From Pycnopodia helianthoides (taxonomy: Eukaryota; Echinodermata; Asteroidea; Forcipulatida; Asteriidae): a DNA stretch of 64,000 nucleotides. Below are positions 18,050-41,100 of the stretch, in pieces. Position 1 is the first letter of the stretch. Every line of letters starts with the position of its first letter. The stretch lies in the NCBI GenBank assembly GCA_032158295.1, contig JASTWB010000035.1:62001-126000 (forward strand). Direction: 5' to 3'. A program made the translations under genes and the position numbers. The notes below the pieces were generated by a model. The model saw nothing but the letters and a program-made list of their open reading frames with translations. It searched no databases and was not told the DNA's origin.

Positions 18050-18136
<87 letters not shown>

Positions 18137-21049
18137 AGAGAGAGAGTGGAGAGTGTGGAGACCGTATAAGGCCAGGTAAACCAAGTAACATGTTTTTCGA
18201 CTGGACTTTTTCAAAAAGAGGAGGAGGCAGGGCGTTACTATTTACTATTTTCCAATTTTTTTATATATTTTATCAAAGATGGCCGCCATGCTAAATATGG
18301 CTGGCCAAGGTATATTTATTCACATTCGTTCTATTTGAGTATACTGATGCAATGTATGACAAAACAAATGATTTGTATTTTTAGTCCACTTTCTAAGCAA
18401 GTTTCAACATTCAAAAACAGTGAAATGTACATGTGTTCAATATTATTTATATCGCGAACATCACAATTGAGGTAGAAGAGTCGACGCCGGGCTCATGCAG
18501 CGATCTGTGGCTCATACTCAAATACTCTTCGCATGCGATGTTAAGTTAAGAATACTTAAGGTGAAAAAAGTATAGACAAATTCTTAGTCAAAAATAAACC
18601 AAGGAACTTCGTTTTTTCGAATTTTCCTTCCCCCCCCCCCCGTTTCCCCTTTTTTGTTATAAAATAGTAAACAAGAAAAGAAAAGCAAAGAGGCGGAATC
18701 CAAAAAGGAGGCGTGCGGGGACGAGAAACGTGTTACTTTTGTTACTTGGCCTAACCAGTTGCAGCGAATTAGTGATGTGTTAATTGGAGTGCGGAAAAAT
18801 GGAAACTATATTATCTCCAGAGGTAGCCATCGAGAGATAAATAGACAGAGAAACGTTGTTAAAACTAATGTAACATGGCTCTGGTGTGGTCTCGTAATCA
18901 GCCATCCTATGACTGTTTGTTGTTTAAGTGGGAGACAAAGGTCTCTGTTTTTGAAAAGTCAAAAGGCGATGTTTAAAACAGACATGTTTTCAAGCCTCCT
19001 TATACTCTAATAGAAAAAAGGAAGGCTTTTAGGAAGGGAGGGGAGGAAAAGAGGTTAGAACTTACTAAAAATAACATTGTTCCGGTGATAATATGTTGAG
19101 CCACTTGTGTTTTATCACCGCATCGTCATTTCCAAACTGAGATTGGTTTTTATGTTCATGTAATACAAAACAAAACAAGGCGGAAGCGCGCGCCGGCGGA
19201 AACCGCAAATTCTAAGCACCGCGCTTGTCCCGATCCCACATGAAACATTTAACCGTACAAGTCATGTAGTCTGGGCCAAGACTTATATTATGTGAAAAGA
19301 CCGTGCAAATCTATTCATTTTTTTTTTTCAATAAAGATCCAGTATTTTCCAGCTTGTATCTTCTTCTTTTTTTCCCTTGCACTTTTGGGGGGGGGGGGGG
19401 GGGCTAGACACCAAAAAAAATTGGGGGGGGGGGGGCTTTAGCCCCCCCCCCCCCCCGTAGGGGGGGCTTTAGCCCCCCCCCCCGTAGAACCGCGCCTGCG
19501 GCTGTCCTTCTGGAGGAATTTGAGAATTCTGTGAACAAGGCATTTACAAATAATTAGTGGTGTAAGTTGTTAAATTTCCCCTTTGTTGCCGTAAGATTTC
19601 AAGTATATCAAAGGATATTTCATAACACAAGGTACTCTAGGTCTTGAAGAGATTGGTGTTTAGTACAACACTGCCTAGTTACATTTGTATTCCTTACAAA
19701 TCTAAGATGGGTGCACCTGTCCTTTTTGGGGGGTGGGGGTGGGTGTTAGGATTTCTGATTATAAGGAAACACCTTATATAGTTATAAATCTTTTATTCAC
19801 AAGCCAGTTTGATTTATTTCCCTATGGTCATAGGACCATTAAAGATTTGGAGCTACAATCCCAGTCATATCTCATTGTGTTGAACCGACTCTGGGTCAGT
19901 GTTGCAAATTGGCTGTGCTTACAGAAATGCCCTTTTGTTAAAAAGCGAAACAAAATTACGAGTAGGTCTATAGACAATCTGTGACAATTTGTTTGTTAAA
20001 ATGAATTTTCAAAGTTTGTACATTTTCAAAAACTTTTGTAAAAACTGTTTTGTGCGCAGTGGGTTGTGTGTACACGCGTGTACAAAAAGATTTCGTGCGG
20101 GTATACTAATAGCTATATATTGCGTTCCGCATAAGTAAATTGGCTTACATGAGCTTGCGCGCCCAACACGTGAAGCCAGCTGGTCTTAAACAGCTCCAGC
20201 TATGTCTTTATCAGCCGTTTAAACACCCCCACCTGATAAAGAAAAAACTTTAAAATGAGGTATGAAAAGGGCCCAATTTCATGGCTCAGCTTACCGTAAG
20301 CAAAGAATCGGCACAGGGAATTCCGGGCTTATGTCAAGCGTGTTTTATGGCTTAGCAGTGAATTTTTGCTTGTGTGCGTGTGTACTCCACGTTACTAGGC
20401 ATTCTTTGCTTACACAGCTAGCGCAGAAATTCGGTGATTGCACAGTAAGCGGAGAATGGTGGTCGCAAGCGCAGAATTCGGCGGTAAGCAGAGCCATGAA
20501 ATTGGGCCCAGTTTGTTGTGTGCCTGGTAAAGGGGCCTAAGGCTCCCCCTAATAAATTTGTTTCTTGTAACAAAAAAATTCAAGAAATAACGTGGCTCCT
20601 ACCATACATTTTTGTAGCTAGAATTACATGTTAATACATTACATGCAGAATCAAACCCTAAAAAAAGACTTACAGAGTGGCAAGAAAATGATTGCACTTT
20701 CCCACTCAAGTCTCTTGAGACACAATTTGATGTATTTTCAATGGGGGTGACAACCTCCTCAAAGTCTATCAAATATTTTGTTCACCAAGTATGGTTTGAG
20801 TTCACTGAGATTGACAAAGTTTCATTTGAGTCTGAGAGGGTCACCTGGGGACCTCTGGTTGATTTGACATGGAATTACCCATATTAATAAGTGCAAAAAA
20901 AATAATTATCTACTGGTGTGTTTACCTTCCTTTTCGTCACTGTCTGCAGTTTCCTCTGGTGGTGGCTGGGACTGGGGATTAGGGTTGACATGCTTTGCAG
21001 AGGATTTTACAACCATGGCCATAAACTTCTTGTACTCTGCGGAATCTCT
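13562..21049 (-). CDS. Multi-exon gene with tyrosine-recombinase-like C-terminal region, split by a transposon
   Basis: Phase-consistent exons in order: 21,049-20,926; 20,765-20,674; [19,528-19,499 plus 17,396-17,197, one exon split by an insertion]; 15,857-15,625; 14,784-14,579; 14,279-14,210; 13,982-13,839; 13,597-13,562. The split exon reads ILKFLQKDSRQAKTQASYLG and looks like a core-binding region. Next comes MLTRPLYFKL...HLRNCLIAEVLFRGAPRSG. The later exons give SHKTMRTHG, IIRKTIATR and VATHMSH...RFYVAAQ. This K...R...H-x2-H...Y order recalls tyrosine recombinases of the Crypton type (inference). The first exon and one small exon joining 20,674 to 19,528 (phase 0 to 2) are not found, and the final exon is also missing. 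The insertion makes this copy a probable pseudogene unless the element is spliced out or polymorphic. Confidence 0.5.
14405..14570. repeat. Near-perfect hairpin (~66-bp arms) next to a splice donor
   Basis: The left arm runs cgtcgtgtgcccagaagaagg, cacgcatcatgaattgtgtgc and cgaagaaggacgt. The right arm is its inverted copy, separated by about 25 bp. Each arm itself contains the word gtgtgcccNgaagaagga twice. The hairpin sits in an intron of the recombinase-like gene, about 10 bp from the splice donor of the exon at 14,579-14,784. Confidence 0.8.
15245..15390 (+). repeat. Dispersed repeat, copy 1 (ttgaccaatcagaat...)
   Basis: The core reads tggtctttatacaccc, then ttttgaccaatcagaat and caaactgtccaaggta. 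Related copies lie at about 16,350-16,395 and 21,490-21,600. It lies in an intron of the recombinase-like gene. The CCAAT word inside could act in a promoter, but that is speculation. Confidence 0.55.
16345..16400 (+). repeat. Dispersed repeat, copy 2 (fragment)
   Basis: It carries ccaccaatcagaactgataa and actctccaaggtatttatg, matching part of copies 1 and 3. Only the core is preserved. Confidence 0.5.
17397..17404. repeat. Left target-site duplication of the hAT-like insertion
   Basis: The octamer cggctgtg here pairs with cggctgtc at 19,499-19,506. Seven of eight bases agree. The original exon sequence resumes on both sides. Confidence 0.7.
18015..18148 (+). repeat. (GA)n microsatellite with ggagggtgga repeats
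   Basis: Four ggagggt-type units are followed by an almost pure GA tract of about 65 bp and an interrupted GA tail. Long open frames across it on both strands are artefacts of the repeat. Confidence 0.95.
19387..19488. repeat. Alternating G- and C-homopolymer hairpin
   Basis: Runs of 13-17 G are followed by ctttagc and runs of 11-15 C, then the pattern repeats (ggggggctttagcccccc). It is a strong inverted repeat and a potential quadruplex or hairpin at the right end of the hAT-like element. Run lengths here are the least reliable bases in the window. Confidence 0.8.
19499..19506. repeat. Right target-site duplication of the hAT-like insertion
   Basis: The octamer cggctgtc directly follows the element end and is continuous with the exon sequence to its right. 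Confidence 0.7.
20269..20509. mobile_element. MITE with GGGCCCAATTTCATGGCTC inverted ends
   Basis: The left end gggcccaatttcatggctc and the right end gagccatgaaattgggccc are exact inverses. The interior is rich in 'taagc/gctta' words. It is related to the hairpin at 3,449 and to the inner element at 55,376-55,566. Only noncoding sequence lies between. Confidence 0.85.
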
Positions 21050-21610: not shown

Positions 21611-22387
21611 TTTAGGGGGGTCTGTATTTCTTAAGTCGGCTTTCAACGTGTTTTTGTTATTGTTATGACAAGTCACATGTGCAACGATGTACAAAGTTTC
21701 AAGAGCTAGCTGTAGTTCAATGTGACACAGTTTATGGGTTTAAGTTGGGTGTTGATGACTGTTGACAACTCGGGATTGAGAATCAAAGTTTCCTGGATTA
21801 CAAATTAAGTGTGTCTCAGGATGTCAAAAATGTAAACAGGTCGGGGGAAGTAGCCTACCCTACAATTCCACATTTTCTTGAAAAATTCAACATTGACCAA
21901 TTATTGAATATCCCTTTAATGAACTGAAGGGTTTGAAAGTAGAATACAAACATATAGGCCCCCTTATGATAATTGATAAGTGTGTTTGTTTATCCACGTT
22001 GACTAACATAAACCATTTCTTCTTTGCCTGACATGCTCAAGGACACACATGCAGTTTCTCAACATGGCAGAACTTGGACCATGCAGGCTGACAATGAAGC
22101 AATAGGTACATGCAGTAAAACTGATGATAAACAAAAAATTGCTTAGCTCTGCTGCTGTATGCAAAGTGAGTATGCTGTATGCAATGTGCCACAGCATGCT
22201 AAACAAGCGGATTATTATAAAACAACAAATTCATACGATTTAATTTACATTGTAGTTTCCTTACAATTCCAAATGCCAGAATCATTTGAAGAATTGTAGA
22301 CTTGCTTGTGTTTATTTACTTTGAACTCACATTCAATTCATGTTTATACCACAAGTGTGTGTCCACACGCTTGTACGATTTGCCGTA

Positions 22388-23110
22388 CACTGCAAAAAAG
22401 TTGGGTAATAAAAGGTTGGGGAAAGCCCAATTTCCCAGATGTTGGTCATTCTTAGTGTAAAGTTTGGTAATTTTCAAAGAAGTTTACCCAACACCGTGTG
22501 TTCAAAGTTGGTGAAAAGCGTAAGACAAATATTTCAGAAAGTTTGACCACATTTGTCAAATCTTGATCACCCAACTCAGTTGGGCAAATGTTGTCCTCTA
22601 AGATGGGGAAAGGTTTTTTACTAATTGATTATTCGGGTATGTAAAACGTTGGGTATTGCTAGATTACCCAGATGTTGGCCAATTTAGTTACAAAGTTGGT
22701 AATTTCCCTAGACACTTTACCCAACACCATTCGTTCAAAATTGGTGAAAGGCATTAAACAAAGTTTCTGGAATATTTGACCAGCTGTTTTATACTCTGGT
22801 TACCCCCAACTGCTTCGGGCAAATGTTGTCCTCTCAGATGGGGAAAAAGTTTTTACTAACTACATTATTCGGGTTATAGTACAACGTTGGAAATTCAAGT
22901 GCTTGGTTTTACCCGGCCCCAGGTTGGCCAATTTTGTTCAAAGGTTGGTAATTTTCCAAGACAGTTACCCATCCAACACCATGTACTCTTAAATTGGTAA
23001 AAGGCATTAGATAACAACTTGAATTTTGGAATATTTCACCATAGTAGGCCTATACGGATTCTTTAAATTTCCCCCCGACTGATATGGGCAACTGTTGTAC
23101 TCCGCCTTGG
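22388..23110 (+). repeat. Left subterminal tandem repeats (~240 bp x 3)
   Basis: Three diverged units start near 22,398, 22,649 and 22,885. Each runs gttgg.., cccagatgttggccaat, aagttggtaattt, acccaacaccatgtgttc, ggtgaaaggcatta and gggcaaatgttgtcctctc. A further partial copy lies in the first intron at 24,370-24,640. The repeated ttggtaa/ttggcca words would suit multiple protein-binding sites. Confidence 0.8.
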
Positions 23111-23479
23111 AGATAGACTAAACTGTAGGTTAATAAAACCACAGTGACGTTTTGGCTAATAGCATTGGCAAAATCTGCTCTTGAAAATTGTTTTCCGCTT
23201 ACATAAATTGCCCTCAATTCCAAGGAAACAAAATAGACAAACAAACAACTTGAACTACAAGGAATAGGCCTATGAACAAAAGTAACACCCTGACGTTGAC
23301 ACCACACGTACGTGACGTGCAGCCCTGAGCTTGGCTTCTATACTATGCACCATCCTCTCAGCGGTATTAGACAAAAAAAATCACACATCACCTGGCAGTT
23401 TTCCAACTTTAAAAAAAAACATAGCATACATTTTAGTACAACTTGGTCTAAACTTGACCAACATTTTGCCACTATTTAC

Positions 23480-23651
23480 GCGCGCGAAAAATTGTTAGGC
23501 CTAATTTACATAAAAGTATTACACTCATCAAGCCGTGTGAGCGCGGAGCGCGCTGCTAGCGAGCTAGCTTGCTAACACTAGCCGTAGCGTTGTCCGAGAG
23601 TACCGATCCCGGTGTGTGTGTGTGGAGTCCGCCATTACCTTCGTGCTAACG
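23480..23651 (+). promoter_or_regulatory. Probable promoter/5' UTR of the SAM-domain gene
   Basis: A GC- and CpG-rich patch (gtgagcgcggagcgcgctgctagc) lies 50-130 bp upstream of the initiation codon, standing out from AT-rich DNA. No TATA box is obvious. The exact start site is unknown. Confidence 0.4.
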
Positions 23652-26600
23652 ATGATGTCTGATGATAGTGATACTGATGAGCAGCAATTGACACAGCAAC
23701 CAGTACCAGTAGGTCTTCTCTTTTCAATTTCATCATCTTTAGTCCTATACATTTATGAGTTGGCATGTCAATGTCGCTTAACAGTAAAATTTATACAATT
23801 TGGGGGCGTTCGACGATGGAATTATATTTGACTTATAATATTAATTATTAATATCCACCACTTTATAAATAAGGACCCTGTGCTGTGGTGCAGAATACTA
23901 GTGATAGCGATAGTGATCATAGTGATGATAGCTATAGTATGACTGAAGTTAAACTTCATATTAGACCTGTTAGTTTGAAAACAACAACGACGGGCTGTCA
24001 AAAACTTTCTGACTTGCACTACTTGGGCATGCTAAAGAAGGTTGACAACTTCGTTTAGAGGCTAGCCGAGCTTTATTCAAGATGATACGAGCATTGTGAG
24101 AAGCCATGTTATAAGGTGATGCATTATGGGAAGTAAACAATAGACTTGAGTCAGTCTACTAATGGCATACCGCTACACATGCCATACTATAAAATCATAA
24201 CTGTTGTGTAATTTGATACGAGCTAGGCCTATATTAGTGGCTTGAAACTACATTATTAGCACAGCCATATCTTACATTGTTATCTTTCATATCGTCTGTA
24301 GTGTAAGAAATTTAAACTATACTGAAAGAATAGCTAAAAACGTATATTTTGTGTAAGTTTCACCAAACTGCTAACGTTACTTAGTTGGGCAAATATTGCC
24401 CTCTCAGGCAGGGAAAAAAAATTACCAATAACAAAAATTAAAAAACGGTTAGTCTTTATGTTGGGGAAACTCTGATTGCCCAGATGTTGGTCATTTGAAG
24501 TATAATGAAGGTTGGTCATTTTCATAATGGACAGTCAAACACCCAATCAATACCTACCATGTGTTCTAACTTCTATGGCAAGAAGTGTTGGACAACCCAA
24601 ATGTTTTGGAAAATTTAACCAGTTGTTTGGTAAATGTCCAATGTCTTTATGTGGGTATGTAGACTCATAAACGGTGCCAATCCACTCCGTATATTCCATT
24701 CCTTGGCCCCTCAGTCATGTATTTAAACATAGTGGAATTTCTATATGGACAAAAATCGGCCGATTTTCCCCCAAATATTACCCACAAATTTAACCCACTT
24801 TCTCAACTTACCCGTTGTTTAAATTCTTTTAAAAAATGTTGATCTTCTGATTTGCTTTGGTGCACCGTGGCCCTTGGTCCATTAAAATTAACTAGTACTT
24901 TCAGATAAAGTGCATTAGTATTAAATGCACGGTGTCAGGAAATATGAAAGGATTTGTGTACAAGTTGATTTAAAAAATCAACCAATCAAACAAGTTGGCA
25001 ATAGTTTTAACCATTTTAAAACCTTTGTTTTACCATTGATACCCCTAAATACAAACAAGTTTGGTGGTGATCGGAAAATAATTAAAGAAAAGTAATTTAT
25101 TTATTTTTTAAAAACAGCAAGTCATTTTCCAGAATGACGACACTCCTACTACAGCCAACCCTATCCGAAGCTTCTTAAGCAAGTGGGGCATACCAGAGCT
25201 TCATGATATTTTTAGAGGTGAGAATCACAGCCACTGTGTTTTGAATATGCTGACTTTTCTTTGATCTCAGAAAATTCATGTAAAAAGGCATCTCTGCAGG
25301 TGCAGGCATGGCCCAGAAAGGTTGAACCCCCTCCACAATGACACAAAAAGGAAAACTAAACCTTTTACATAGGTTTTTATTCAAAATAAAACAAATCTGA
25401 AGGGCCTGTATGATCCCACCACCCTGCGAAAATACCTTGATCTGCCCCTGCTCTGAAGTTTAAAGTTAATTGAATGATACCATTAAACAATTATCAATTC
25501 TTTAAATTTTGTGTTTTGGTTCAAACCAAGGAAAATGAATCTGTAATATAATCTACAAAATGACTATTTTTTACTGAGGAAGTCCTGCAAAAAGCAAGAG
25601 GGAAACATGAAGTGCCATGGGATTTCTTTTATTTAAGATAATTTTGAATCATCATAATGTCCTTCAGAGTAAAGGCAAGGGTGGAGGTGTATAGGTCAAA
25701 ACATGTTCAATGTTGGGGAAAAATACCATTGAGATTCCTGATCATTAGCTGTCATCCTGTGATCAGAGTTCAGTTTGTCAATATTGCAAAAACCATGGAT
25801 GTATGTACATTCTTTATAAAACTGTTCTATTTATTTGTTTCATTTGTTTCCAGAACACGACATTGACTTAGATGCTTTAAAACTGCTTGATGAAAAGTCC
25901 ATTGTTGAACTCATCCCTAAAATTGGAACAAGACTAAAGTTTCTTCAGGGTTGGAGAGCAGAAGTAAGTTTTTGTATGTCCTGGCTCTGCACATAATGGG
26001 TTTCACCTGTTTCAAATGTTTGACTGTTGTGGAAGGAGTACAGCAACTGTTTTATCACTTGAAATATATCCATAATATAACTTCTGGCTCGGCAACAAAA
26101 ATCATTTGCTGTGAAGATGGTTGTTTTGAGAAATTCTCATATTGTTCTTCTTATAAAAGACATCTTATAAAACGACACCAGATCACAAATCCCACAGCAA
26201 CCAAAAGAGATGAAAATGTGGAAGATGTTCAGATGGATATTGAAGATGAGGCACGTGGATTGCAAAATGAAGAGGACAATTTTGAAACAAATGTGTCAAC
26301 AAACAATTCAATGGATGAGACAGATGAAGACCCTCTGATGGATATTCGGAATCACATAGAGCATTTTGCAACAAAAATGATGTCTTCCTTTGCACCAACA
26401 TCATTTATTCAAATGGTTTTTGAAGAAGTTGAAGAGTTGATTCTTGGAATTTTGCATCATCTTGAAGGAGAAGTAAACACTCTGCAGACAGAAGAAATTA
26501 TTCCTGGCAGTTTTAATTCCATCCTAGACGAACTTAAAATCCTAAAGGAATCTTTCAGTGGACTAAGAACTGCTCACCAGCGTACAGCATACCTGAAGAA

Positions 26601-29600
26601 AGAAGGGAATTACATACCACCTAAAGAGAAAATAGTAGGAAAAACATTTGTTTCCGAAACAGACAAACATTCTGGCCAAACCAAACAAGTAGAGAAAAAT
26701 GAAACGTTCCAGTATGTGCCTATTGAAGAAACTATTAAGGACTTTTTGCAACAGCCAGGGGTCTTGCAAGCCATAACTGAGGAAGATAAAAAATTCAAAG
26801 ATCCAAACCTTTTACAAACATTTCGTGATGGAGTAATGTTTCAGGACAAATTTGACAACAATCAGGTGGAAGGTATTGCTACCTTTGATCTCATTCTGCC
26901 TTTACTCTTGTTTAATGATGACTACGAAACAGCTAATCCTCTAGGCTCACGTAAAGGTGTACACAAACTAAGTGCGTTTTATCTAAGTTTTCTGAGCCTG
27001 CCCACAAAATATCAAGCAACGCTAAGCAACATCAAGCTAGTTGCTTGTGCCAAGAGTCGCATCTTAAGTAAACATGGTACTGATATTGTAGTGTCTCAAA
27101 TAGTTGAGGATATCAACAAAGTGCAAGAATTTGGCATAGAGATTACTTGTAAAGATACAACTGTGAAGGTGAGGCCAGTGATTTTCCAGGTAATTGGAGA
27201 CAATCTAGGTCTCCATGGAATGCTTGGCTATGTTGAAAGTTTCAGTGCGAATTTTCCTTGTAGATTTTGTCGAGCTCACAGACAAGTTATCCATCAGCAG
27301 GTTGTTGAAAATGTTGATCTATTGCGGTCTGAAGACAACTATAACGAAGATGTTGCAATGGAGGATGTAAGCCTTACTGGTATTAAACGAGTTCCAGTAC
27401 TAAATAACATTAATGGCTACCATGTGACAGAAAACTTGGCTCCAGATGTAATGCATGACCTTTTAGAAGGTGTGTTGCCACTGGAAATAAAGCTTACTCT
27501 GAAATTACTGATTGCAAATGGATGTTTCACTCTTGAAGAGGTCAACAGTAGGATCAGTTCCTTTGGATATGGATTTACTGACAAGAGGAATAAACCCAGT
27601 GCAATTAGCCAGTCTGCATTGATAAATCCTGGAGGAGCAAGTGGACAAAAGGCAGCACAGATGACGTGCTTAGCTACCTACCTGCCTCTTATCATAGGAG
27701 ATTGCATTGATGAAGGTTCAGACATTTGGGAAGTTTATCTGCTGCTCTTGGATATTTATAAAATTGTTAAGTCACGGAGCATCAGTAAAACAGCTACTCT
27801 CAGATTGAAGCATTTGATCCGTGATCATCATCAACTGTTTCTACAAGTTCATACAGAACGCAGGTTGACACCTAAGCAGCATTTCCTGATTCATTACCCG
27901 AGGTCCCTCAGGCAACTTGGCCCCTTGATGCAATATTCAAGCATGAGATACGAAGCTAAACATAAACAATTCAAAAAGTGGGCTGCAGCATGCAATAACT
28001 TCCGGAACGTAGCAAAGACCGTGTCTACAAGGCACCAACAGGCACAAAGCATCACAAGCAGTATGTTTGGCAACACACTGGATTACAAGGTGGACATTAA
28101 GTATCAGGTGTCTGTAAAGGTTTCATCTTTAGAGGAGAGAATCTCCATTTGTACTGCTCTTGACTGCTCTGAGGACGCTACGGTGGCTGTGGCTAGTGTT
28201 GCAGAGTTTCAGAGTTACCAGATAAGGCCAAACTGCATGGTATTAACAGACTGGACAGAAGATGGTCCAAAATTTAGTCAAGTTGAACAAATGTTGGTGT
28301 CTGCAAAAGGCCTATATTTGGTTCTTCGACCATGGCAAGTGGTTACATTCTTCAGGCATTACCATGCCTTTCAAGTCAAAGAGGCTATAGATGCAGAGAT
28401 CTTGGTGCTTCAACCACATGTTCTCTTTGACAATCGCCCCCTACACTTAACACCATGTCGTGGGGAAATGGATTGTACATTGCAGTGCAATTTGATTTTC
28501 TTTAAGGAAGGTAAACACATTTAATTATTATTTTTGCTTTTCAATTGATTTGCGGTTCAAGGTTGTGCCCGTTCACCGCAATGAATTTTTTGGAAAGGTA
28601 AAATTCAAAACTATTTGTTGGTACCTTTCTCATTGCTCTAAAAATAATCTGAAAAAGACTTTAATTGTATTTGTCTGTACATTGATACGTTTTTATATGT
28701 TGCTCTCCAGTTCAAACAAAAGAATGCACCAAAACAGCATGCTGGACCACCACCATCAAGAAGTAGTGATGCAGACTCCTTAACTACTGACATTGATGAT
28801 CTGCTGGACATGTTGGATCCAAAAGATGATGCTAACTCTTCATCTTCTTTGAGTAACTTGCCAACATCTCCAGATGACTCAATACTTTCCAGCTCATCCT
28901 CAACCAGCACTTGTGTCCCACCCTTGGAAAAGAAGCCTCGATTGATGTTTGTAAGTTAACTGTTCATATACGTATTCGCCTACATGTTGGTTCTCTAAAT
29001 ATTATTGTCAGTGATGAAATTCTCAAAGCCATTACCATCTTTTATTTCAAACAAAAGTGCTTCCCTTCTCTTAGCAAACCATAATCACTGTACAGTATAT
29101 TTTGCTGCAGCAAACAGCTCTATGAAATAGTTGCCATAAGGTTCAACCCCTAAATATCATCCCTGATGTATTAATGTCTGTTACAAATGAAACACATGTT
29201 TAAAGGCACTGGACACTATTGGTAATTACTCAAAATAATTGTTAGCATAAAAATTTACTTGGTAATGAGCAATGGAGAGCTGTTGATAGTATAAAACATT
29301 GTGAGAAACGGCTCCCTCTGAATTTTTGAAAAAAAGAGGTAATTTTTCACTCAAATAATAAACTGAAGCCTTTTTTTATGGATATGAAAGCAAACAAAGT
29401 AATGCAAACAAAGTAATGCAAACAAAGTAATGCAACAAGGGTGTTTTTCCTTTCATTATTCTCTTGCAACTTCGATGACCAATTGAGCCCAAATTTTCAC
29501 AGGTTTGTTATAAATACTGGTCTTTGACAATTACCAAACATGTCCAGTGCCTTTAAGTAAACTGTCAAAGTATTGTAAAATTAAGATTTATTTGCAATGT

Positions 29601-32600
29601 GGGTATGCTTTATCCCAGGATACACTTCAAATCCTCCAAAAAACAGTCACAGGAAAAGACATTGTTGCAAGGCTACAAAAAAACAGACTCTTGACGAAAA
29701 AGGACAGGTCAAAGATGACAGCTCTATTGGTTGGACACCTGATTGACGCCTTTGGTCTGAAGTGAGTGCTTTTTACAATCACTGAATTTCCTTTTTTGTG
29801 TTTGTATTTTTGTTTAACCATTGTTTGATTAGAAGTTTGTAATGAAAATAGAGGTATTTGTTGTATTGGAACAGAATGTTTTTGTTAGTCAGAAGCAGTG
29901 AAGATATCTTGTTTTGAAGATGTGGCGGTCTTGATAAAGACCGGTGGTGTATATTATAAGTTAAAAAAAAAAAAGTAAAGTCAAATTGCTGATTGCAAGT
30001 CCATTGATTGTTTTTAGAGCAACGGAAGACATCAGACAATTGCGTGTTTGAATTCTAAGTCAAACCATTGAAACATCAATCCATTATTCTATTAACAAAA
30101 TCTTGCCAAAACGTACAGGTCTGGCTATTTTTTTGAAAGGCATGGTATATCATTAGTGTTGAGGAGCTTGGAAGAGTTTGTATATGTATTAATAAAATTG
30201 CATTAATACGTGCACATGTTGCTAAACAACTTGCTTCTCATTGTTTTTTTGTTTTTTTAAATGAGGTCTCGGTTCTCAGGCTTTGAGGTCTTGACTCCAA
30301 CACTGATCAATGTTTGGAAGAACAAAAATTCCTTGAAAAATGTTTGAAAACTAACTCTCATATTTCCTTTTGTCTCCTTTTTATAAATCAACATAGACCG
30401 AGTTCGTTTGAGAAAGAGTCACTTGCAGAGAGTATTGTGGTGGCATTTCCTTTTCTTCGTGACCCTGAGGGGAAAGGCTTTGTAAGTATGGACAAAATTT
30501 TGAATTTGTAAAGAACTTGAAATAGGGACAAGCTGATCTGTGAAATTTGTTGCTGATTATACCAAGTGTAACGGCGGAATTTAACTGCAATACACAATAA
30601 CCACTGCTTGTGACTATCCTGACGATTCCTTTGCTCATGTAAATTTATTGTTACTTATCGCTTCTCAGTGCATCACAAAACACAATCTATGTTTACATCA
30701 CTATTTATTTCTGAACGTGTAGTTTGTGTCATTCTCAATGTTCAGTTCTCTCAGTAGTATAACACGGTTGCGAAAGTCATGAGCTGTACATTATAATATT
30801 AAACGATGTGAAACAGTTCAACAGGAACACAACTTTAACAAGGTTTGACAAGAAAGTACAAAACCGAAATGGCTCTTACGCAGCTAATCAACCAAAGATT
30901 CACTCCGCAAGCAGTAGAGATCTTATATGTCCATTACTTGAAATCCAATCAAAGTTGCATACAAACAAGACTCCTTTTGGTAACAAAATCTAACTTTTCT
31001 GATCCAGCTTGTATTCAGCGAAGCTCGCATCTATCTATCCCGCTTTTCCTCTTCCTGCAAGCCTGCCCTCTAGCGGTAGAGCCAAAACTAAACTAAACTA
31101 GCGGTAACACCAAGTAAGACCTAAAGATCTACATCGACTGAGGGTTTTCAATCAAATCGTAGTGATAATAATGTAGTGTTATATTTTATCCTGTGTTGCA
31201 GGAAGCTTGGTACGTGAAAGGTGCACAAAATCGCCCAGCAACTGGCTACGTGGAGGAACATTTAAGATACGTCCGCAAAACAATGCTAAAGAGTCAGAAT
31301 GACAGCGAGAAAAAACACAGAAAACACTCAGCAAAAGGTAAGCCTTTATAAAGTTCACGAATAACCTGATGTTATTTTTATTTCAAAGTATCGTACTGAG
31401 TTTGTTTACATAACTTATTTGGTCCCCGACAATGAAAACAGAGAACATGCCTGCATTGATACAATCTGTAGACATCGTTCTACTTCCATATGTCTCTGAC
31501 TTTTTTCAAAAGAGGCTTTTTGTGTGATTATATGAAATAGAAACATGGAGGAATTCAAAATGTGTACTATCAAAAAATATGCCACAGATAACAGCAATTG
31601 TGATGAACCTGCACAATATTGAAAGTATGGGGAAAGGAGTTTGTTTCTGCTAGATTTGTTGAACAATAGGGTACCCAGTTCCAAAAGGTTCCAAATAGAC
31701 GGTCGTTTACAAAACATATGGGAGGTCATCCTAAAAAATTGAAGTACAAACAAAACGGGGGCACCAGTAGGGTGTGTGTGTGTATTCACAGTTGCAAAAG
31801 GACCTCAATTTGCAGTGTCTTCATTACACAGTCTTTCACCCAAATCAATTTGAAGAATAATGTGTACAATATAGTTTTTGTTTGTATTTTCTCACTTCAC
31901 ATTGATTTCTGGTATGATTGCTTGTGCGTGTCTCATATACATGTAGCTGTGCCAGATGAGGAACACAGTGCAGATAATCAACCTATGCAGTCGGAGGAAC
32001 TGGATGAGATGATTGCATGGATGAAGGAGAATGAAGAACCTGAAGAAACCATCAAGAGCTACATGGCAGCAACAGCAGACTATAGAAAACACTTCATGAA
32101 GGAAGACAGGCATACCCTTGCTGATTTTCTGCAAGCATTCCCAAGGGTTCTCGATAAAGGCATGGTAATTGAACAAGCTAATCTTCATTAAACAAATAAC
32201 TAACTTAGGCAAATGATGCATTGTTATAACAATTGTTATGATTACAATTATAATTAACATGGTTCTCAGTTAAGACTAGTAATCTCAAAAACCATGGTAT
32301 AGATTATGGTTGAAGTCCTTCGAAAACAACAAGGTGTTCAAGATGCTAGAAGAGCACTGCTGAGAACCTGCATAATGCAGATCAAAATGTGCGTGGTCTG
32401 ATTGTCTACCAGATTTGATGTATGAACTCTATCTTTCAAACTCAATTATCTTGTCTTTTTCACACTGAAACTCATTGTTCCCAGAAGTGGGAAATGAAAA
32501 CAGGCTAAGGAAATTTATAATACGTGAACTTGTATGATATGAGTATACCTGCTAAACATTGTAAAGTGGTGTTATTAAAACTCATGAAACCTTCACATGA

Positions 32601-34429
32601 CTAAATGACCAGTGGGCCTGTTAAACGACATTTTAAAAATCTTGTTTTGTGTACTTTTTGTTTTTAGATTGAACAAGATTTTAGACTTGTTCACCATGGA
32701 GACAAGTCTGAGAACCTGTTCTTGAAATGGGAAAGGCCTCTGCAACGGGATAATTGATTATGCCACTGGCATGAAATTTGCGTGGAAGGAAGTGTTGGGC
32801 CTTGAGTTCATTAATACAGCTGAACTGTCAACAGGTAAGGCCATAGTAGTATCCAAATATTGACTTCTTCACATGGCATAGTAAAACTAGTCACTTGAGG
32901 TATTCTCCGGAGCAGCATATCTTCCTAAGGCAAAGATAGGCGGCTCCGGGGTTCACCTCCAGCAACTTATTTTTTACGCCATGAGATAAAGCAGTCAATA
33001 TTGTTTACAATGATACAAAATGAAGAAATCTTGTGAACAGTTCACACTGTTCATAATCACAACACCTGTATTATTATACTCTCCAGGCCTGACCATTAAT
33101 TTGAGCATATTAATCGTCAAAACTAAACTATGCAAACTCACCAGCCAATGCAAGATCACAAGACAGTCGTTTTGGAAACATGGCATTCAGCTGTAAAATA
33201 ATATTATCAATGAAACTACAACATTTGAAACAACCGTGATTGAGAGCTATTGCTGCATATTAGCAGTACAAATACCGGCCATTTTAAAAGGTTCAGAGAT
33301 GTACCAGACAAATGAAATTACAAAAATCAAAAGGAAGAGATGATTTGATGAATGCATGTTTCTTTTATTGAATATATGTTCATTTTGTTTGTCTCTTTTC
33401 AGATGAGAGAAAAAACCTGGCATTTTTGCTTCTCCCATTTGTATTTGGTGGAAGGGGACGTGGGAAGGGTGGAGGTCGGTGTCCTCTGCTGGACAGCCTC
33501 AAGGCATTTGTAGACTTGCAACCGGTATGATATATAAATTTTATATGCTTTAAACCATTCCTTTTGTTTGATATTCATAACTTGGTTGGATTTCTTACCT
33601 GCACACAAAAATGCACAGGCTGTTGACATTCAATCAAAGACTATTGAGCTGCATGTTTAGAGAGCCAGATTGATGCAGCTCATTAGTATACTCTCTCTTT
33701 TCATTACAGTTTGGTTCACATCTTGGTTCTATAAGAAAATTTGATTTTTATGTTCATAAGGAATCCTTGGGTCTTCCTCAGAATAATTATGACTTTTTGG
33801 TTTTCCTCATAAACTGACCTTCTTATCTTTTTCCCTCCAGTTCAATCAGGCTTTTGAGCTGAGTTCCATACGTGAACCCGATCCTCAGTACATAGAAATA
33901 ATGAAACTGAAATAAACTCACTGCTCTCAGTTATTAGAAGTGTTTTTTACACTCTCACTTTGTTTGTCGCTATTAATTGCAGTTTCTGCACTGATACACA
34001 AGTGACAACAGTACACTTTGTTACACAGAGTCGAAGCTCAATTATCCTTTTAAATTATGCTTTTATGAATTTCATTTTGTTGTACTCCTTTTCAAGGCAA
34101 TAATCAGTGTTGAGCACTATTTGAAAAGGATTAGTGCTAAGGACCGCCCACAACCCTTCATATTGGCCCTCTACTCCCTGAAGCGGCTGCAACCAACACA
34201 AGTGTTCACCATTGTTGAGCGACATGCCACTCAGCATCCTTCCATTAGTAAGGCAGTTGACCAAGCATTCAAGGCACACTACGTGTTGAATCTAGACTAC
34301 CAACAGCAAGTCAAGCTAGTGTGGGAGTTCTTGCAGATTGTAGTTTATGACCTCCCAGGATTTGTCAAACCAGCAGTCAGGGAGGTCAGGGCATATCTAA
34401 GCTCGTCAACCAAAACAAAACAGCCATAA
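23652..34429 (+). CDS. SAM-domain protein of the SAMD3-like type (12 exons), transposon gene
   Basis: Exons: 23,652-23,708; 25,118-25,217; 25,854-25,963; 28,562-28,597; 28,711-28,950; 29,619-29,761; 30,397-30,481; 31,202-31,337; 31,947-32,164; 32,668-32,834; 33,403-33,524; 34,097-34,429. All splice sites are GT..AG and all phases agree except inside exon 10. The predicted protein is about 581 aa. Residues 34-89 form a sterile alpha motif (IRSFLSKWGIPELHDIF, LDALKLLDEKSIVEL). Later parts (FGLKPSSFEKESLAESIV, FLQAFPRVLDKGM, and VWEFLQIVVYDL at the end) resemble SAMD3-like proteins abundant in fish and invertebrates. Exon 10 carries one surplus base near 32,731-32,737, giving TGA at 32,755, so this copy may be inactive. 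An alternative last exon (33,841-33,915) is also in phase. Its place inside the element suggests an accessory, tnpA-like role (inference). Confidence 0.7.
24370..24640 (+). repeat. Partial subterminal-repeat copy in intron 1
   Basis: The words agttgggcaaatattgccctc, gggaaactctgattgcccag, atgttggtcattt and agaagtgttggacaaccc match units of the 22.4-23.1 kb array. The coding first exon thus lies between repeat blocks. Confidence 0.65.
25996..28524 (+). CDS. Zinc-finger transposase-like ORF nested in intron 3 of the SAM gene
   Basis: The open frame extends upstream to 25,951, but the first ATG is at 25,996 (842 aa). That start sits just before a C2H2 finger CFKC...HLKYIH (C-x2-C-x12-H-x4-H), followed by a second finger ending HLIKRH. 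An acidic linker follows, then a core with VIGDNLGLHGM, PCRFC, APDVMHDLLEG and MRYEAKHKQF. Numbered from 25,951 these are D417, C437/C440, D499/D503 and E668, candidate DDE residues with a C-x2-C between. LTPKQHFLIHYP lies just before the E. The order fits animal proteins I associate with the CACTA/EnSpm (CMC) group. The frame has no stop or break. It occupies 25,996-28,524 of an intron spanning 25,964-28,561, so it may be expressed by intron retention or its own promoter. A donor at 28,511 exists but leads to no in-frame exon. Confidence 0.8.
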   Translation: MGFTCFKCLTVVEGVQQLFYHLKYIHNITSGSATKIICCEDGCFEKFSYCSSYKRHLIKRHQITNPTATKRDENVEDVQMDIEDEARGLQNEEDNFETNVSTNNSMDETDEDPLMDIRNHIEHFATKMMSSFAPTSFIQMVFEEVEELILGILHHLEGEVNTLQTEEIIPGSFNSILDELKILKESFSGLRTAHQRTAYLKKEGNYIPPKEKIVGKTFVSETDKHSGQTKQVEKNETFQYVPIEETIKDFLQQPGVLQAITEEDKKFKDPNLLQTFRDGVMFQDKFDNNQVEGIATFDLILPLLLFNDDYETANPLGSRKGVHKLSAFYLSFLSLPTKYQATLSNIKLVACAKSRILSKHGTDIVVSQIVEDINKVQEFGIEITCKDTTVKVRPVIFQVIGDNLGLHGMLGYVESFSANFPCRFCRAHRQVIHQQVVENVDLLRSEDNYNEDVAMEDVSLTGIKRVPVLNNINGYHVTENLAPDVMHDLLEGVLPLEIKLTLKLLIANGCFTLEEVNSRISSFGYGFTDKRNKPSAISQSALINPGGASGQKAAQMTCLATYLPLIIGDCIDEGSDIWEVYLLLLDIYKIVKSRSISKTATLRLKHLIRDHHQLFLQVHTERRLTPKQHFLIHYPRSLRQLGPLMQYSSMRYEAKHKQFKKWAAACNNFRNVAKTVSTRHQQAQSITSSMFGNTLDYKVDIKYQVSVKVSSLEERISICTALDCSEDATVAVASVAEFQSYQIRPNCMVLTDWTEDGPKFSQVEQMLVSAKGLYLVLRPWQVVTFFRHYHAFQVKEAIDAEILVLQPHVLFDNRPLHLTPCRGEMDCTLQCNLIFFKEGKHI
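29200..29556. mobile_element. TTAA-bounded MITE, second copy
   Basis: The ends TTAAAGGCACTGGACACTATT and (inverted) TTAAAGGCACTGGACATGTTT match the element at 5,764-6,148. A triplicated word (caaagtaatgca) at about 29,395-29,433 is unique to this copy. It lies in the intron between exons 5 and 6 of the SAM gene, so it inserted into the larger transposon. Confidence 0.85.
33841..33915 (+). CDS. Alternative terminal exon of the SAM gene
   Basis: A pyrimidine-rich acceptor (ttccctccag) opens a phase-0 frame FNQAFELSSIREPDPQYIE that stops at 33,913-33,915. It could replace the exon at 34,097-34,429. The longer exon fits the SAMD3-like family better, so this one may be a minor form or chance. Confidence 0.35.
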   Translation, partial: FNQAFELSSIREPDPQYIEIMKLK

Positions 34430-36059
34430 AATGATAAGTTGTAAGTGACCACTCATGAAACAGCCTATTTTTTCATGTTTTCATGTTTTCATGTTTATAT
34501 TTGCAAGATGTTTGAAATTACCAGATAGGCTGGGTAAAGTCAAGTGGGTTAAAATGCACTTAATGTTTGCTTTTAACTATGACAGAGTCATTGCAGACAT
34601 TGGTTTTATATAACGTTGTCTGTAGATTACCAACAGCAGGTTATTATGATTTTATATGTAATCCTAAAGAGAGAAAAGAGAGAGTATCACACGCTCTAAC
34701 CAAAAAACAAACAGAAATAGAATAAAGAAAGAAAAAAAAGAAAACAAAACAATCTAACTTTTATTTTGTATGGTCAGGAACCAAAAAAGAAGAAAATTAC
34801 AAACAATAAATAATAAGACACAAAGGACTGGTCTTGTGATATATTTTCTAAACCCCAGCAAAATATCTGTTGGAATTTCAAATCACTAGTTTCTAGTCAA
34901 ATCAGGTCTAGCATCTTTAACCTACAAGTTGTTGTTAAAGACATCTCAAAAAATATCAGACCCGCTATCAAGGATATTTGTGTTTTATGTTAAATGTTTG
35001 ACATTAAGCAAGCATTGTATTAGTTAAGTCAAAAGTGCAAAATCATAATGACAATAATGTTAAAATTTCATCACCTGATTCGTTGTTTACTGAAATTATT
35101 CAAATAAGCAGGTTTTCTCAGAAAGAATGTTGATTTATTTTTTTATTTTTTTAGAACATTTTAAAGACCCAAGATCAATATTTTTGCTGAACTTCTCCAT
35201 CTTAGTAAAGGGCTTACGCACAACAACAACAACAACAACCATACCCCCCCCCCCAATTTCTTGTAACGGCTTTACATAAATCATTAAGTTAAGATAATAA
35301 GTCATACTTATGACATATCTTTAGTCGTAAATTTGAGATGATAGATCATAGTTATGACTTATGCTAAGTCATTATTATGAGATATAGGTCAGAATTATAT
35401 CTATGAGATATAAGTCATAACTATGAATTGTTTGATTTCCCTTTATGTATGGAACAAAGTAGATTGTTGAGGCCGAATAAATAAAAAAACATGTTCTTTT
35501 TTTTAAAGAGTTATAGCAAACTTGTTAAATATTTGCAAGATGTTTCCAGATTTAAACTGAACAAATATCCGTGAAATAAGGCAATCACTTTAGCTTAGGA
35601 TGAAAGGAAATCATAGGAAAGTGAAAAGAATATCAAGGCACAAACTATTGTTCCTTTATCTTTTTGTCAGAAATCAGTTTCTATTAATTGAAGTTTAATT
35701 CAAAACTGTAGCTTATGTAGGTTTCAAAGCGTTGGTGCAGGAACCAACATGTTAAATCACGAGATGTAAACTGTTGTTTTACAACAGCGATGTTATAAGT
35801 TTGCTTTGAATCATCAGACAGTCACATTTCCTTTAATGAAAACTGTTATTGAAGTTCTTCTGGAACAGTTCAATTGCAATATTCCACAATTGATTGTAGA
35901 CCAAATCTAATTGACAAGAGGCCAATAAAAGTTTTTTTCAGGTTGCAAAACAATTTGTATTTGAAGTATGTTTATTATTGTCCTTTACCCGTCTTTTTGA
36001 ATGCCTGTTGCGTTTTATTGGAGATTTAACATGTTAGCTGTGAGTGATTCGAAATCTTT
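34430..36059. other. Non-coding right portion of the large transposon
   Basis: After the stop there is an aataaa at about 34,721 that could be the poly(A) signal. Further right are a short CAA repeat (35,219-35,240), a C-run, and a diverged tandem of 'gtcatarttatgagatata' words (about 35,300-35,430). No exon is seen. Confidence 0.45.
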
Positions 36060-36817
36060 ATTTACCACATTTTGTTGGTACGAACTGTCCAACATTGTTC
36101 AATCAACCGTTGACCAAAAGGAGAAATGTGTTCCGACAATTACTGACAGTCTTTGACCAACAATATGGAGCCAAGCGAGACCATTTTCCAAAAGTTGGCC
36201 AATAAAAGAGTTGTGACCGTTGTAAATGTTGGTAAAAAACCGATGACCAATTTATATAAGCTGACAAGACGCCAATAATGTGACAAGCCTGACCAATTTA
36301 TATGACATATTGTTGACCAATTAATGAGTTATTGAAGTTATAAAGGTTGGTGAAAAGCCTGTGACCAACTTATGAGAGCTTAAAAGACACCAACAAAGTG
36401 ACAAAAAGTCTGACCAATTTTTATATATTGTAGTTGACCAATAAATGAGCAAATGAACGTTATAAACGTTGGTAAAAAGCCTATGACCAACTTATGGGAG
36501 CTTACAATACGCCAATATTTGTTAAATATATTTGACCATAAAGTAAATATGTCGATATTCCATTTTATTGGTCAAATCCCACTAACCATCTATTATGTAG
36601 GATATTTTAACCAATAAAATACAAAAACACTGAATGACCAACACAGTTGTATAGAATGTTTTAACCAACAATTTGGTAATATCCCCATCACCATCTTCTG
36701 GTCAAACTGATCTGCCAACTGCAGTTGGGAACAATTTCACCAAAAGTTGGGAAGTTGATATTTGCACCATTATTGGGCAAGAAACTGGGCAAAAAATGCC
36801 CAACATTTTTTACAGTG
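36060..36817 (+). repeat. Right subterminal tandem repeats (~120 bp x 3) and inverted end
   Basis: Units near 36,190, 36,313 and 36,432 share ttgaccaataaatgag, ataaaggttggtgaaaagcc, tgaccaacttatgagagctt and gacgccaa words. The ttggt/accaa vocabulary is the same as in the left array although the unit length differs. The segment ends at the CAGTG terminus. Confidence 0.75.
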
Positions 36818-37336
36818 TAGCAACCTGGCACTGGACAATCAGCCACTCTCCTTTCATATTTGCATTTGCCATTTTTGGGATTGGAGATTGGTACTCTGTA
36901 AAAACACAATAAATACAAATTACCAACATATCAGTTACGTGGGAGAAGGATTTCAAAGAGTAATGTTTTAAAATGTGGATCAAATTTTCAGAGATGTTGT
37001 TGGAGCTGTAAGAAAGTGTTCATGATGGCTTTGGACTTTAGCCAGATGTGAGATCAAATGAATAATGACCAAAGCTGTAAAGGTACAATACTGATGTGAA
37101 ACATTAATTAATGAATTCTCTGTAACTGGTTCACATCTAGCACATTAGTTAAATATATAGAAACAGGAGGTATAATAACCTCAGTTGTCATCATTCTGGT
37201 TCCAGAGCTAATGTCTACATTTATGTATACATTTGTATCGCATCACTTGGGTACACTATAAGTCTTCAATATAATGGACACAAAAATTGTTACCAATGTG
37301 GTACATTGAGTTACTTGTACAGCTCTAGCAACTTAC

Positions 37337-37473: not shown

Positions 37474-38173
37474 CTGAAAAACAACAACATGTAGTAGACT
37501 TTACATGTTTAAACAGTTCATCAATTACCAAGCATTATCAATAATTACCAATACCATTGAGATTGTTATTATGTAACCAAACAAGCACGAGTGGAATACG
37601 GAAAAACTGCTATATTTTTGGTATTCCACATGCGCACATGTGATAATGAATTTATCGTCAAGCAAACTGGACATGCAGATTAACGCAGTATGTGGTTTTG
37701 GAACAGCTGTACTTTTTGCGTATACCTAGCTCAAAATTGCACAATACACAGAGTTAGAACAGCGCAACATGTCACGTAGGGTGTGATATGGGCCATGTGA
37801 TACATGGTTTGTATCACACCTTCTGTTGCTATGGGTTGACCATCAGAATCGAGGATTCAAGTTTGCTTGAAGATAAAGACCTATATCAAGGTGCAGGCAT
37901 CTTATTTTCCCTTTGGAGTAGTGGAGGATTGAAGAGCATTGAGTCAGGTACCTTTACTTTTAGTCTAGTACCTGTGTGGTGAGAATTTGTGCTATATTTT
38001 CTCGATTGGTCCAAGATGGCTGCAGAGTGATAAATGTCTATATTTTTTCCTAATTGATGCCCATAGCCTACTTGTCTTACCGGTTTGTTTGTCTTCACAC
38101 GCTGACTTTTATATTTTTTGGCCATTTCAAGGCGCCTGTTGCTGAATTGATATACATCAACGTGATCTTCGTC

Positions 38174-41100
38174 TCATTCCTTGTCTTCTACTTCTAGGTC
38201 TTCCTCGTCTCCCTCATCTTCCTCTTCTTCCTCGTGCTCCTCGTCTTCCTCATCTTCCTCATTCTCCAGTTCCTCATACTCAGGCTCTTCTTCTTCATCG
38301 TCTTTATCCGTGTCCTCCATCATCTCCGGCTCGTCATTGTCATCAACATCGCTTTCCTCATCTTTTTCTCTCTCGCAATCTTCATCTTCGTAGCCACCAT
38401 TGCTCAGACCATGTAATATGTTGTGTGCCTGAAACAAGCAAAATATTAATTGTTTCTTGAAATGATAAACAGTGGAAAATTAAGATGACATTAATAGTGT
38501 GGAAAAAATAGGCCTACGCCACCTTTACCATGCCATAATAACATCCTGTGCTTTTTTCACTATTTGTTTGAAAGTAGGTTGGGAAAAACCCTAATCTAAC
38601 CTGGATTTTAGAGGGATGAATTAATGCAATCGTATGGGATTCTCATGAGGCACAAGAGGTAGCCTATTTAAAATGTGGAATTGCAATTTTTGTAATGTTC
38701 CCTATGTCACATACACTTACCTTTCACATGGTTCTTTCAGTCAACTATAAAAACAATAAGGGGAAAAAATGTTGTAAACATTATGAAACTTCATTTAAAT
38801 AATTGCTATTTTATCAGTGTGTTATTTTATATGCAATTTACTGTTATGCTAATATATTTGTCAATTGTTTGGGAAAACAATTGGGAGCAGTAACACTACA
38901 TTGAGCAGGCAACCCACCTTAATTCTTTGATTTGTTTTTGTCCATTTAAAAAAACATACAAAGATAGTGAATAACTTTGATGTGCTCATAAGTTACTGTG
39001 GGGTGAACAAAAAACTTGTATCAATCACTGTGTGTTCATGCCCTCTATGAAATTGCTATGCTCCCCCCCCCCATTTCAATAAAAACAATCGTCACTCAAC
39101 ATAGCCATAGGATTTGTTTTAATGTCACATGTGGCTTGTGCACCCCAACTTCGTATATAAACATGATAAACGTAGTTAAAATAAAGTAGGCCGAACGTTT
39201 TAATATAGGCCTATCAAATAAATAAATAAATACATATATCCATTCCAGTACATTGCAAAACTGAAAAGGGTATTCTGTGTGTTCCCTTTCTTTGATTATA
39301 TAAACCTTTTTAAACTACTCTGTTCGCTATTACATTGTATAGGCCTATGCGTTCTGTAATGCTGTGTTTTTGACAGTATGGAAATAAATGTGAATTGAAT
39401 TGTGTTTATTAAGTTACAGTTGTCAGTATCTTCTACTAACGCGTTCAGTGTTTGGTAAACTAAACATTATCCTAGTGCAGTGGTAGTGTTAACTGTTGCC
39501 CAGTCGTTTTTTCAGAAAGCATGCCCTTGTTTGAGTGTTCTTTTGGTCGTTTTTTAAACTATAATGTCAGAAAAAATAATCCCTCCTCCGCCCGCGTTCA
39601 GTTATGATTTTCCTAGTCGTAATGATAGTGCATAGATTTCACCGCATAACTTATAAGTTATAAGCAAACAAAAATATTAAAAAGTTATAACGGTAGGCCT
39701 ATGGTGAAGAACTGATGTAGTAATTAATAGTTTGGGCTCACTCGAAACTTCATCATTTGTCCCCAATCGAATATCTCATAACTTGTCCCATCTAGGGACG
39801 GTATGTGAAAACACAATTTACTGTACTTTTGTAGTCCATTTTGTGCGCGTAAAAGTTATTAAAAACTAAAATATCTATGAGTATGAATAATTTCGACTTA
39901 CTTGAACAAGCTGATCAGCAACCCCTGTCTAAATTAGCAGTGGGCTGTTTAAACCTTTTAAATGATCTTTAATAACAACTTTCAGCCAATCAAATTGCAA
40001 AGAGAGTGAAAATAATTTATTGAAACCCTTAGACCAAAAAAAGACGTTGGGATGTGGAGGGCAAAATTTCACATCTTTTTTTTTACAACTAACAGACCTA
40101 ATACAGCTGAAATAAACAGACTTTAAGGAATTGGTGGGATTTTATTTGATTTATCAAAAGTCCTTAAGGAAAACTCAATTTTAATCACGTAGTGTAGGTT
40201 TCATTGATCGAGCGACCCTGGCAACGGCCAATGTGCATTTCCAAGGTGAAACCGTTAGACCAAAAAGTGAGCCCTGTTGCGGTGAAAATCAGCCAGTGTC
40301 TGTAAACTCTCGAAAATGAGCGCGAGCAGCATAATTATTGAAATAACTTTAATCTAACCTTAAAAATTGTTCCAAAAGGTATCCAATTTCATTGAAGTGG
40401 GTTTCGTTTTGTTCCTTATTTGCCGGATATAGCAATTGGAAATGCGGCAGGACAGGCTCCCTTTAAACCAAAAAAAAAAGTAAAATGGTTAAAAAAAACA
40501 TATTTTTTGGGGGGGGGAAATGTACTTTAATGCGAATTTTATCTATTTTATTGTTTTGTAGATATCAGAAAAAAATTGGGTTAACATTGAAGTGGATATT
40601 TTTAAAATGCAAGTGATAACTGTAAAATTGTGTCTCCTTTAGACCAAGATTTATTGCCGAATTTAAACTACTTGAACCTCTCAGATTTTGCAAATTTCTT
40701 GGGTTTTAGGTGCCGCATTTAAAAAAAAAATTGTACTGAAGTGTTAATTAAGATTGTATTACTTCATAAAAAAATCAATGAGCAAATTGGGCCCTATATT
40801 AAGAAAATAAGCAACGGTAAACTTCCAAGACGCATTCGAAAAAATCGCGCAAAGCGTCAAAAAACTAAAGCACACAAGGGGTAGAGGGTCTTACACTACC
40901 AAGTTGTTTTTTTAACCGATTTTGAAGGTGGATGATGACTCGGATTGAGAAAATTGTTAAACCAATCTTAAAGAATGATTCATTCTCTAGTCTTTCCGAA
41001 GAAAGAGTGGCATTTGATTATTACAACTAGTTCTTTTTGGATGGGCTCCCTTTAGACCACGCTAGAAACAACGTCAGTTGGTCTAAAGGGGGTTGTGTTT

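Follow-up and report, generated by a model that had tools for sequence, protein, structure and literature searches.

A CACTA-superfamily transposon with nested SAM-domain and transposase genes in the sea star Pycnopodia helianthoides

If a multi-exon gene for a SAM-domain protein carries a transposase-like open reading frame (ORF) in one of its introns, are the two genes parts of one mobile element, or has a transposon entered a host gene? The question is raised by positions 22388-36817 of a 64,000-nucleotide stretch of the Pycnopodia helianthoides genome (GCA_032158295.1, contig JASTWB010000035.1, positions 62,001 to 126,000; hereafter the window), for which a preliminary description proposed a single transposon arranged like maize En/Spm. 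The segment is a CACTA-superfamily DNA transposon, and it is almost certainly an autonomous element of CACTA type with nested genes. The best overall explanation – to which we assign a probability of about 80% – is an autonomous, very recently active cut-and-paste CACTA element that encodes a SAM accessory protein.

The inverted ends, the subterminal arrays on both sides and the boundaries that had been proposed are all present, with TA flanking each side. CACTG stands at both termini in all 11 copies with two ends, as the CACT(A/G) ends of CACTA/En-Spm elements require. Features at the level of the element are as follows.

22386-22387: left target-site duplication, TA (a 2-bp direct repeat in 11 of 11 two-ended copies)
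22388-36817: whole element, 14.4-kb CACTA-superfamily DNA transposon
22388-22405, plus strand: left terminal inverted repeat, CACTG..., CACTGCAAAAAAGTTGGG beginning at 22388
22409-22949, plus strand: left subterminal array with a period near 254 bp and a high density of TTGG[TC][CGA]A (self-match at 73% identity)
36193-36515, plus strand: right subterminal tandem repeats, 118 bp x 2.7 (tandem-repeat listing)
36799-36817, minus strand: right terminal inverted repeat, CACTGTAAAAAATGTTGGG, inverted counterpart of CACTGCAAAAAAGTTGGG, finishing at 36817
36818-36819: right target-site duplication, TA (comparison of two-ended copies)

A search for further copies, both full-length and deleted, had been proposed as a check, and such copies exist. 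The left 313 bases of the element were searched against the 479-Mb, 742-contig assembly, a procedure that gives a lower bound: the left end occurs at no fewer than 13 places, the window included. The 12 other places were extracted with their flanks and all 13 were compared with each other. Six copies (including that in the window) are complete, at 14,427-14,430 bp, and the other five are 99.94-99.95% identical to the window copy. A seventh, C15b, matches the window to base 13,947; its stretch has 100 N and its right end is not seen. Together these make up the near-full-length set. Five more copies have both ends but are internally deleted (5,862, 6,505, 6,786, 7,104 and 11,053 bp), and the last, C11, survives as a rearranged, diverged remnant in pieces of 91-95% identity. 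Multiple dispersed copies, target duplications and deletion derivatives are thus found together, as in CACTA/En-Spm families.

Each of the 11 two-ended copies is bordered by a 2-bp direct repeat, TA in ten cases and TG in one: given the single TG, the TA is not merely part of the element ends. The target duplication of En/Spm is 3 bp, and by this mark of plant CACTA elements in the narrow sense the present family, with 2 bp in 11 of 11 copies, falls outside. The 600-bp flanks (13 left, 11 right) showed no likeness between copies, the sole match being between the two flanks of copy C9a, so likeness stops at the ends of the element. Among the seven near-full-length copies 21 columns are variable – 7 substitutions and 14 one-base length differences, with C15b excluded close to its missing end – and every substitution is private to a single copy. 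Copies so nearly identical imply that the element moved very recently; judged from these sequences, the star-like variation is that of a very recent burst of transposition.

The deleted copies divide the element in two ways. The left breakpoint lies inside the transposase ORF (26279-26855) in four of the five, with the right breakpoint in the last SAM exon (three copies) or beyond it (one copy, 35341); these four are without the transposase core, SAM exons 4-10 and more. In copy C2 a natural deletion (30136-33507) has removed SAM exons 6-10 wholly or partly and kept the transposase region. BLAST pieces flanking the five deletions overlap by 3, 3, 4, 8 and 11 bases.

Within the ends lie two genes. 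The SAM gene was described as multi-exon, and it is predicted to comprise 11 GT-AG exons (23652-34429) that encode 569 amino acids, all of them inside the element and none outside. The transposase ORF occupies the intron between predicted exons 3 and 4, the placement expected of an En/Spm-type system. In the list that follows, exons rest on GT-AG sites and an open frame unless another basis is given.

23652-23708, plus strand: SAM gene exon 1
25118-25217, plus strand: SAM gene exon 2, first part of the SAM domain (also a domain match)
25854-25963, plus strand: SAM gene exon 3, second part of the SAM domain (same junction in P0121/P0019)
25994-25998, plus strand: TAATG, SAM-frame stop overlapping the transposase start codon
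25996-28524, plus strand: transposase ORF in intron 3, ATG at 25996, window frame 842 amino acids
27190, plus strand: candidate in-frame acceptor within the transposase ORF, equivalent to the junction of Acanthaster isoform X2
28711-28950, plus strand: SAM gene exon 4
29619-29761, plus strand: SAM gene exon 5
30397-30481, plus strand: SAM gene exon 6
31202-31337, plus strand: SAM gene exon 7
31947-32164, plus strand: SAM gene exon 8
32668-32834, plus strand: SAM gene exon 9 (frame broken only in the window copy among the seven near-full-length copies)
33403-33524, plus strand: SAM gene exon 10
34097-34429, plus strand: SAM gene exon 11, the last (GT-AG sites; alignment with P0121-P0123)

A candidate additional exon of the SAM gene at 33841-33915 was rejected, since in relatives its two neighbours are joined directly. 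The SAM protein is unbroken in five of the seven near-full-length copies and an 836-residue transposase in six. The transposase-like ORF had been called intact: it is present in the intron as claimed, but in the window copy a one-base length difference near its end alters the last residues.

That the two genes belong together is indicated by relatives as well as by the 12 further places and the target duplications. At least 283 transposase homologues were found at E<=0.001 (8000 candidates scored), and the analyses below use the best 120 of the 283. The matches listed include Asterias amurensis, Holothuria leucospilota, Apostichopus japonicus and Acanthaster and, more distantly, a nemertean, fishes, a sea spider and moths; 36 pattern matches in viral and 22 in prokaryotic contigs yielded no confirmed relative. 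SAM-gene and transposase sequence are found in one predicted protein in 10 of the best 120. Three gene models of Holothuria leucospilota (P0011, P0017, P0026) run from SAM to transposase to the remainder of the SAM gene; Acanthaster isoform X2 (P0019) joins SAM to a later part of the transposase; and P0041 (Lineus) and P0053 (Nymphon, a weak match at E 5e-4) have the transposase followed by a piece of the SAM-gene remainder. The other four (P0014, P0047, P0056 and P0076) come from short unnamed contigs (ena, jgi, lgn); in each of these ORFs a SAM match begins at residues 50-52 and runs in one frame into the transposase. By predicted exon lengths exon 3 starts at residue 53: judged by sequence, the four seem to be unspliced DNA with exon 3 lying directly against the transposase in the same frame.

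In the present element the SAM frame, read past exon 3, continues for ten codons and then meets TAA (25994-25996), the last A of which also opens the transposase ATG. The overlap of stop and start suggests that the transposase is expressed by intron retention; TAATG is found in 11 of 11 copies checked, although these are nearly identical and hence not independent. The annotation of Acanthaster LOC110990748 contains both kinds of product: isoform X1 is the SAM protein (P0121) and isoform X2 is SAM exons joined to transposase (P0019), and the two have the same 74 residues before they part at the exon-3 junction. An X2-like splice to the acceptor at 27190 is open in copy C5, where it would give 527 amino acids without D308. 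Two products from one transcription unit are seen in gene models only (Acanthaster X1 and X2, and the joined models of Holothuria).

The transposase has the marks of a DDE enzyme. In an alignment of 38 proteins (the transposase of copy C5 plus 37 of the best 120 homologues), D308, D402 and E653 are invariant, as are D484, H487, H629, H633 and the two cysteines of a CxxC motif (C422, C425). At the N-terminus C5, C8, H21, H26, C38, C43 and H56 are nearly invariant, a pattern that fits two C2H2-like fingers. Pfam matches at E<=0.01 among the 38 proteins are to Transposase_21 (5), zf-C2H2 (5), DUF4218 (1) and Plavaka (1), the best match to Transposase_21/tnp2 (PF02992) being that of P0034 (E 4.9e-7, 29.6 bits, cut-off 28.6), which itself matches the element's transposase at E 9.8e-134; the copy C5 protein matched none of these four families at that threshold. 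The domain expected of CACTA/En-Spm is therefore reached through relatives only, and the assignment of the transposase to CACTA, made by sequence, rests on their Pfam matches.

Structure prediction points to a wider kinship. Pfam and PDB sequence searches with the window transposase returned nothing useful. An AlphaFold model (mean pLDDT 86.1) gave 49 Foldseek matches in PDB at E<=0.001, all 49 of them to RAG1, BbRAGL or HzTransib. Identity is 10-13% and TM-score 0.23-0.40 by query length, which confines the likeness to the core fold: the enzyme has a DDE core that is predicted to fold like those of RAG1 and Transib. The spacing of the CxxC and the two histidines from the second Asp and the Glu resembles that of the RAG1 zinc site, and suggests a CxxC/His architecture common to the CACTA and RAG/Transib groups. 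No RAG2-like gene was seen in the element, and here too it differs from RAG1, ProtoRAG (BbRAGL) and HzTransib. Mirage and Chapaev, sister groups within CMC, belong to the same broad DDE group.

The SAM protein has its closest named relatives in Acanthaster planci and Patiria miniata. Its match to SAM_1 (E 1.4e-4, 22.6 bits) is slightly below the curated cut-off of 23, and Pfam searches with four single-exon frames of the gene gave nothing useful. Thirteen PDB matches at E<=0.1 were obtained with a profile built from four homologues, 10 of them to SAM-bearing chains: ANKS4B, tankyrases, ANKS6 and Bicaudal-C at E 0.003-0.02, others more weakly. The remaining three, to designed barrels on another part of the protein, are probably due to chance. 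A model of the Acanthaster homologue (pLDDT 67.7) matches SAM structures (ANKS3/6, BICC1, tankyrase) at probability 1.00; outside the SAM domain no match was recognised in the rest of the protein. Several SAM domains of the ANKS/BICC1/tankyrase kind form polymers, and the titles of two matched tankyrase structures name a filament. It is on such polymers that a pairing of element ends through SAM contacts can be proposed.

Next to both ends there are repeats that a binding protein might recognise. The right array is a listed tandem repeat, while the left array is absent from the Tandem Repeats Finder list and visible as a self-match. On the two strands together, the left 700 bp contain 11 instances of the motif TTGG[TC][CGA]A and the right 820 bp contain 18. 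Dinucleotide shuffles of these stretches (300 per end) averaged 1.2 instances on the left and 1.5 on the right; the highest shuffled counts were 5 and 6, and the observed values were never reached. Because the motif was selected post hoc from k-mer counts the contrast with shuffles is inflated, yet the excess over the interior is still more than 10-fold: the 12,030-bp interior holds 17 (1.41 per kb; shuffle mean 15). The outer 3 kb hold 3 on the left (1.0 per kb) and 7 on the right (2.33 per kb).

From these observations a mechanism may be put together. The transposase, with its C2H2-like N-terminus and RAG1-like DDE core, would cut at the CACTG ends. Removal of intron 3 would give the SAM protein as an accessory factor (as for tnpA) and its retention the transposase (as for tnpD), so that splicing of this one intron would set the ratio between them. 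In a TnpA-like role, the SAM protein would gather on TTGGTCA-like subterminal motifs and pair the ends by self-association of SAM domains. Deleted copies would depend on proteins from complete copies, like dSpm, the internally deleted derivatives of En/Spm, and the X2-like SAM-transposase form is a possible inactive partner. The parts of this scheme differ in strength. The odds are slightly in favour of the SAM protein being needed for transposition; retention of intron 3 as the source of transposase is put forward tentatively, at somewhat less than even odds; and that the SAM protein corresponds to TnpA and binds the subterminal repeats is proposed by analogy.

A more elaborate version, which we regard as rather unlikely as a whole, would make intron 3 a three-way splice switch conserved across bilaterian CACTA elements. 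Retention, removal and a third splice would give transposase, SAM protein and repressor, with dosage controlled by SAM-SAM tethering. In this family reinitiation at the overlapping stop and start of TAATG would yield the transposase, and some relatives would make it fused to SAM sequence; exon 3 spliced into the ORF would produce a SAM-transposase without the first catalytic Asp, and this would be the repressor; SAM-SAM contacts would hold all three forms together on the subterminal repeats.

Several results weigh against an intact two-gene system of the kind we favour. Both genes of the window copy carry a frame difference, which in the SAM gene is a one-base length difference in exon 9; SAM exons 5 and 8 of copy C18 each have a one-base difference. 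The element's own transposase has no direct Pfam transposase match, with neither Transposase_21 nor DUF4218 found at E<=1. Foldseek with the weak model of the Acanthaster SAM homologue gave no match at E<=0.001, and no DNA-binding fold was recognised in that model. Finally, 110 of the best 120 transposase homologues have no SAM-gene sequence in the predicted protein; these are uninformative on layout because gene starts and splicing are not known there.

The most serious competing explanation accepts the same CACTA element but places the SAM protein outside transposition, as a regulator, an anti-silencing factor or a passenger, with the transposase under its own promoter. In its favour, the transposase ORF begins with an ATG of its own and its C2H2-like N-terminus might contact DNA, and the SAM protein, as modelled, has no recognised DNA-binding fold. 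However, the SAM gene is open in five of seven near-full-length copies, its sequence is joined to transposase in the 10 listed relatives, whose transposases are 31-62% identical to that of the element, and the clusters of subterminal motifs fit a dedicated binder. We consider this a genuine possibility, at about the odds of a minority opinion.

That a smaller, ORF-bearing transposon inserted into an ordinary SAM gene of the host, or that two transposons are nested by chance, is highly improbable. An ORF within an intron is just how a nested insertion is expected to look, but both genes are in all seven near-full-length copies, and nesting at the same exon junction recurs in the Acanthaster and Holothuria models and, as regards exon 3, in the four ORFs from unnamed contigs: the explanation is largely refuted by the relatives. 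Segmental duplication or redundancy of the assembly, which the small contig (132 kb; 132,021 bases) and the near-identity of copies might suggest, is scarcely credible when the 600-bp flanks of different copies are unlike and a 2-bp direct repeat borders all 11 two-ended insertions.

Other features were noted in and around the element. At and upstream of exon 1 (23400-23699) GC content rises to 0.49-0.51 (23500-23699) and CpG observed/expected to 1.38-1.54 (23400-23599), above adjacent 100-bp blocks in both cases; En/Spm has a GC-rich control region, and by analogy with it this stretch is a possible promoter. Intron 4 contains a stretch of about 350 bp (29200-29556) that begins with TTAAAGGCACTGGACA, ends with a near-inverse and encloses a tandem array of 3.3 units of 14 bp; it has the look of a small non-autonomous transposon riding inside the larger element. 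Near the right end, outside the 118-bp array, lies an imperfect 44-bp repeat (35302-35398) with many TATGACTTA- and TAAGTCATA-like palindromes. Beyond the element, GGAGGGT repeats followed by a GA array of about 50 units are found upstream (18020-18146), and a long acidic run marks an open frame at 38174-38479 (minus strand), which adjoins another at 37886-38173; neither frame has a Pfam match above cut-off.

How does the element compare with known systems? In the scheme given for En/Spm in PMC2613891 and PMC1636069, two products come from one transcription unit and large ORFs lie within an intron. The present element resembles maize En/Spm in its CACT-type inverted ends, subterminal repeats, ORF in an intron of the accessory gene and internally deleted derivatives. 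It differs in that the transposase is in intron 3 rather than intron 1 (PMC2613891), is a single ORF and is accompanied by a SAM-domain accessory protein, and the target duplication of 2 bp compares with 3 bp in the soybean CACTA element of that source. SmTRC1 of Schistosoma mansoni and related animal TRC elements are also among the closest known systems. As portrayed in PMC1636069 (2006), SmTRC1 is likewise an animal CACTA-like element with a 2-bp direct repeat (7 of 14 copies analysed); alternative splicing omits its transposase ORF from most expressed sequence tags (ESTs), and one clone has two tandem ORFs. It is smaller, however, at 4.5 kb with a 54-bp inverted repeat, as against 14.4 kb here, and its authors could detect no conservation outside Transposase_21, whereas here the SAM gene is conserved in relatives. 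SmTRC1 thus provides a precedent for an En/Spm-like layout in an animal. The preliminary description knew of no such layout with a SAM protein in an animal element: the layout has this precedent, but a SAM accessory gene in CACTA/EnSpm, its conservation and the abutment of exon 3 were not found in the open-licence literature searched. As far as our searches go, the SAM accessory gene and the exon-3 junction are new.

The abutment of exon 3 and transposase in distant relatives suggests, from sequence comparison, an old expression strategy. Active CACTA elements are known mainly from plants. With its unbroken copies of both genes and its natural deletion derivatives, this young family would make it possible to test in an animal whether the two-component TnpA/TnpD system is general. 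Natural test substrates are at hand: among coding parts C2 lacks only part of the SAM gene, and four other copies lack the transposase core. Studying the family could reveal what a SAM domain contributes to a mobile element, and how a transposase predicted to fold like RAG1 operates where no RAG2-like gene is present and activity has been recent.

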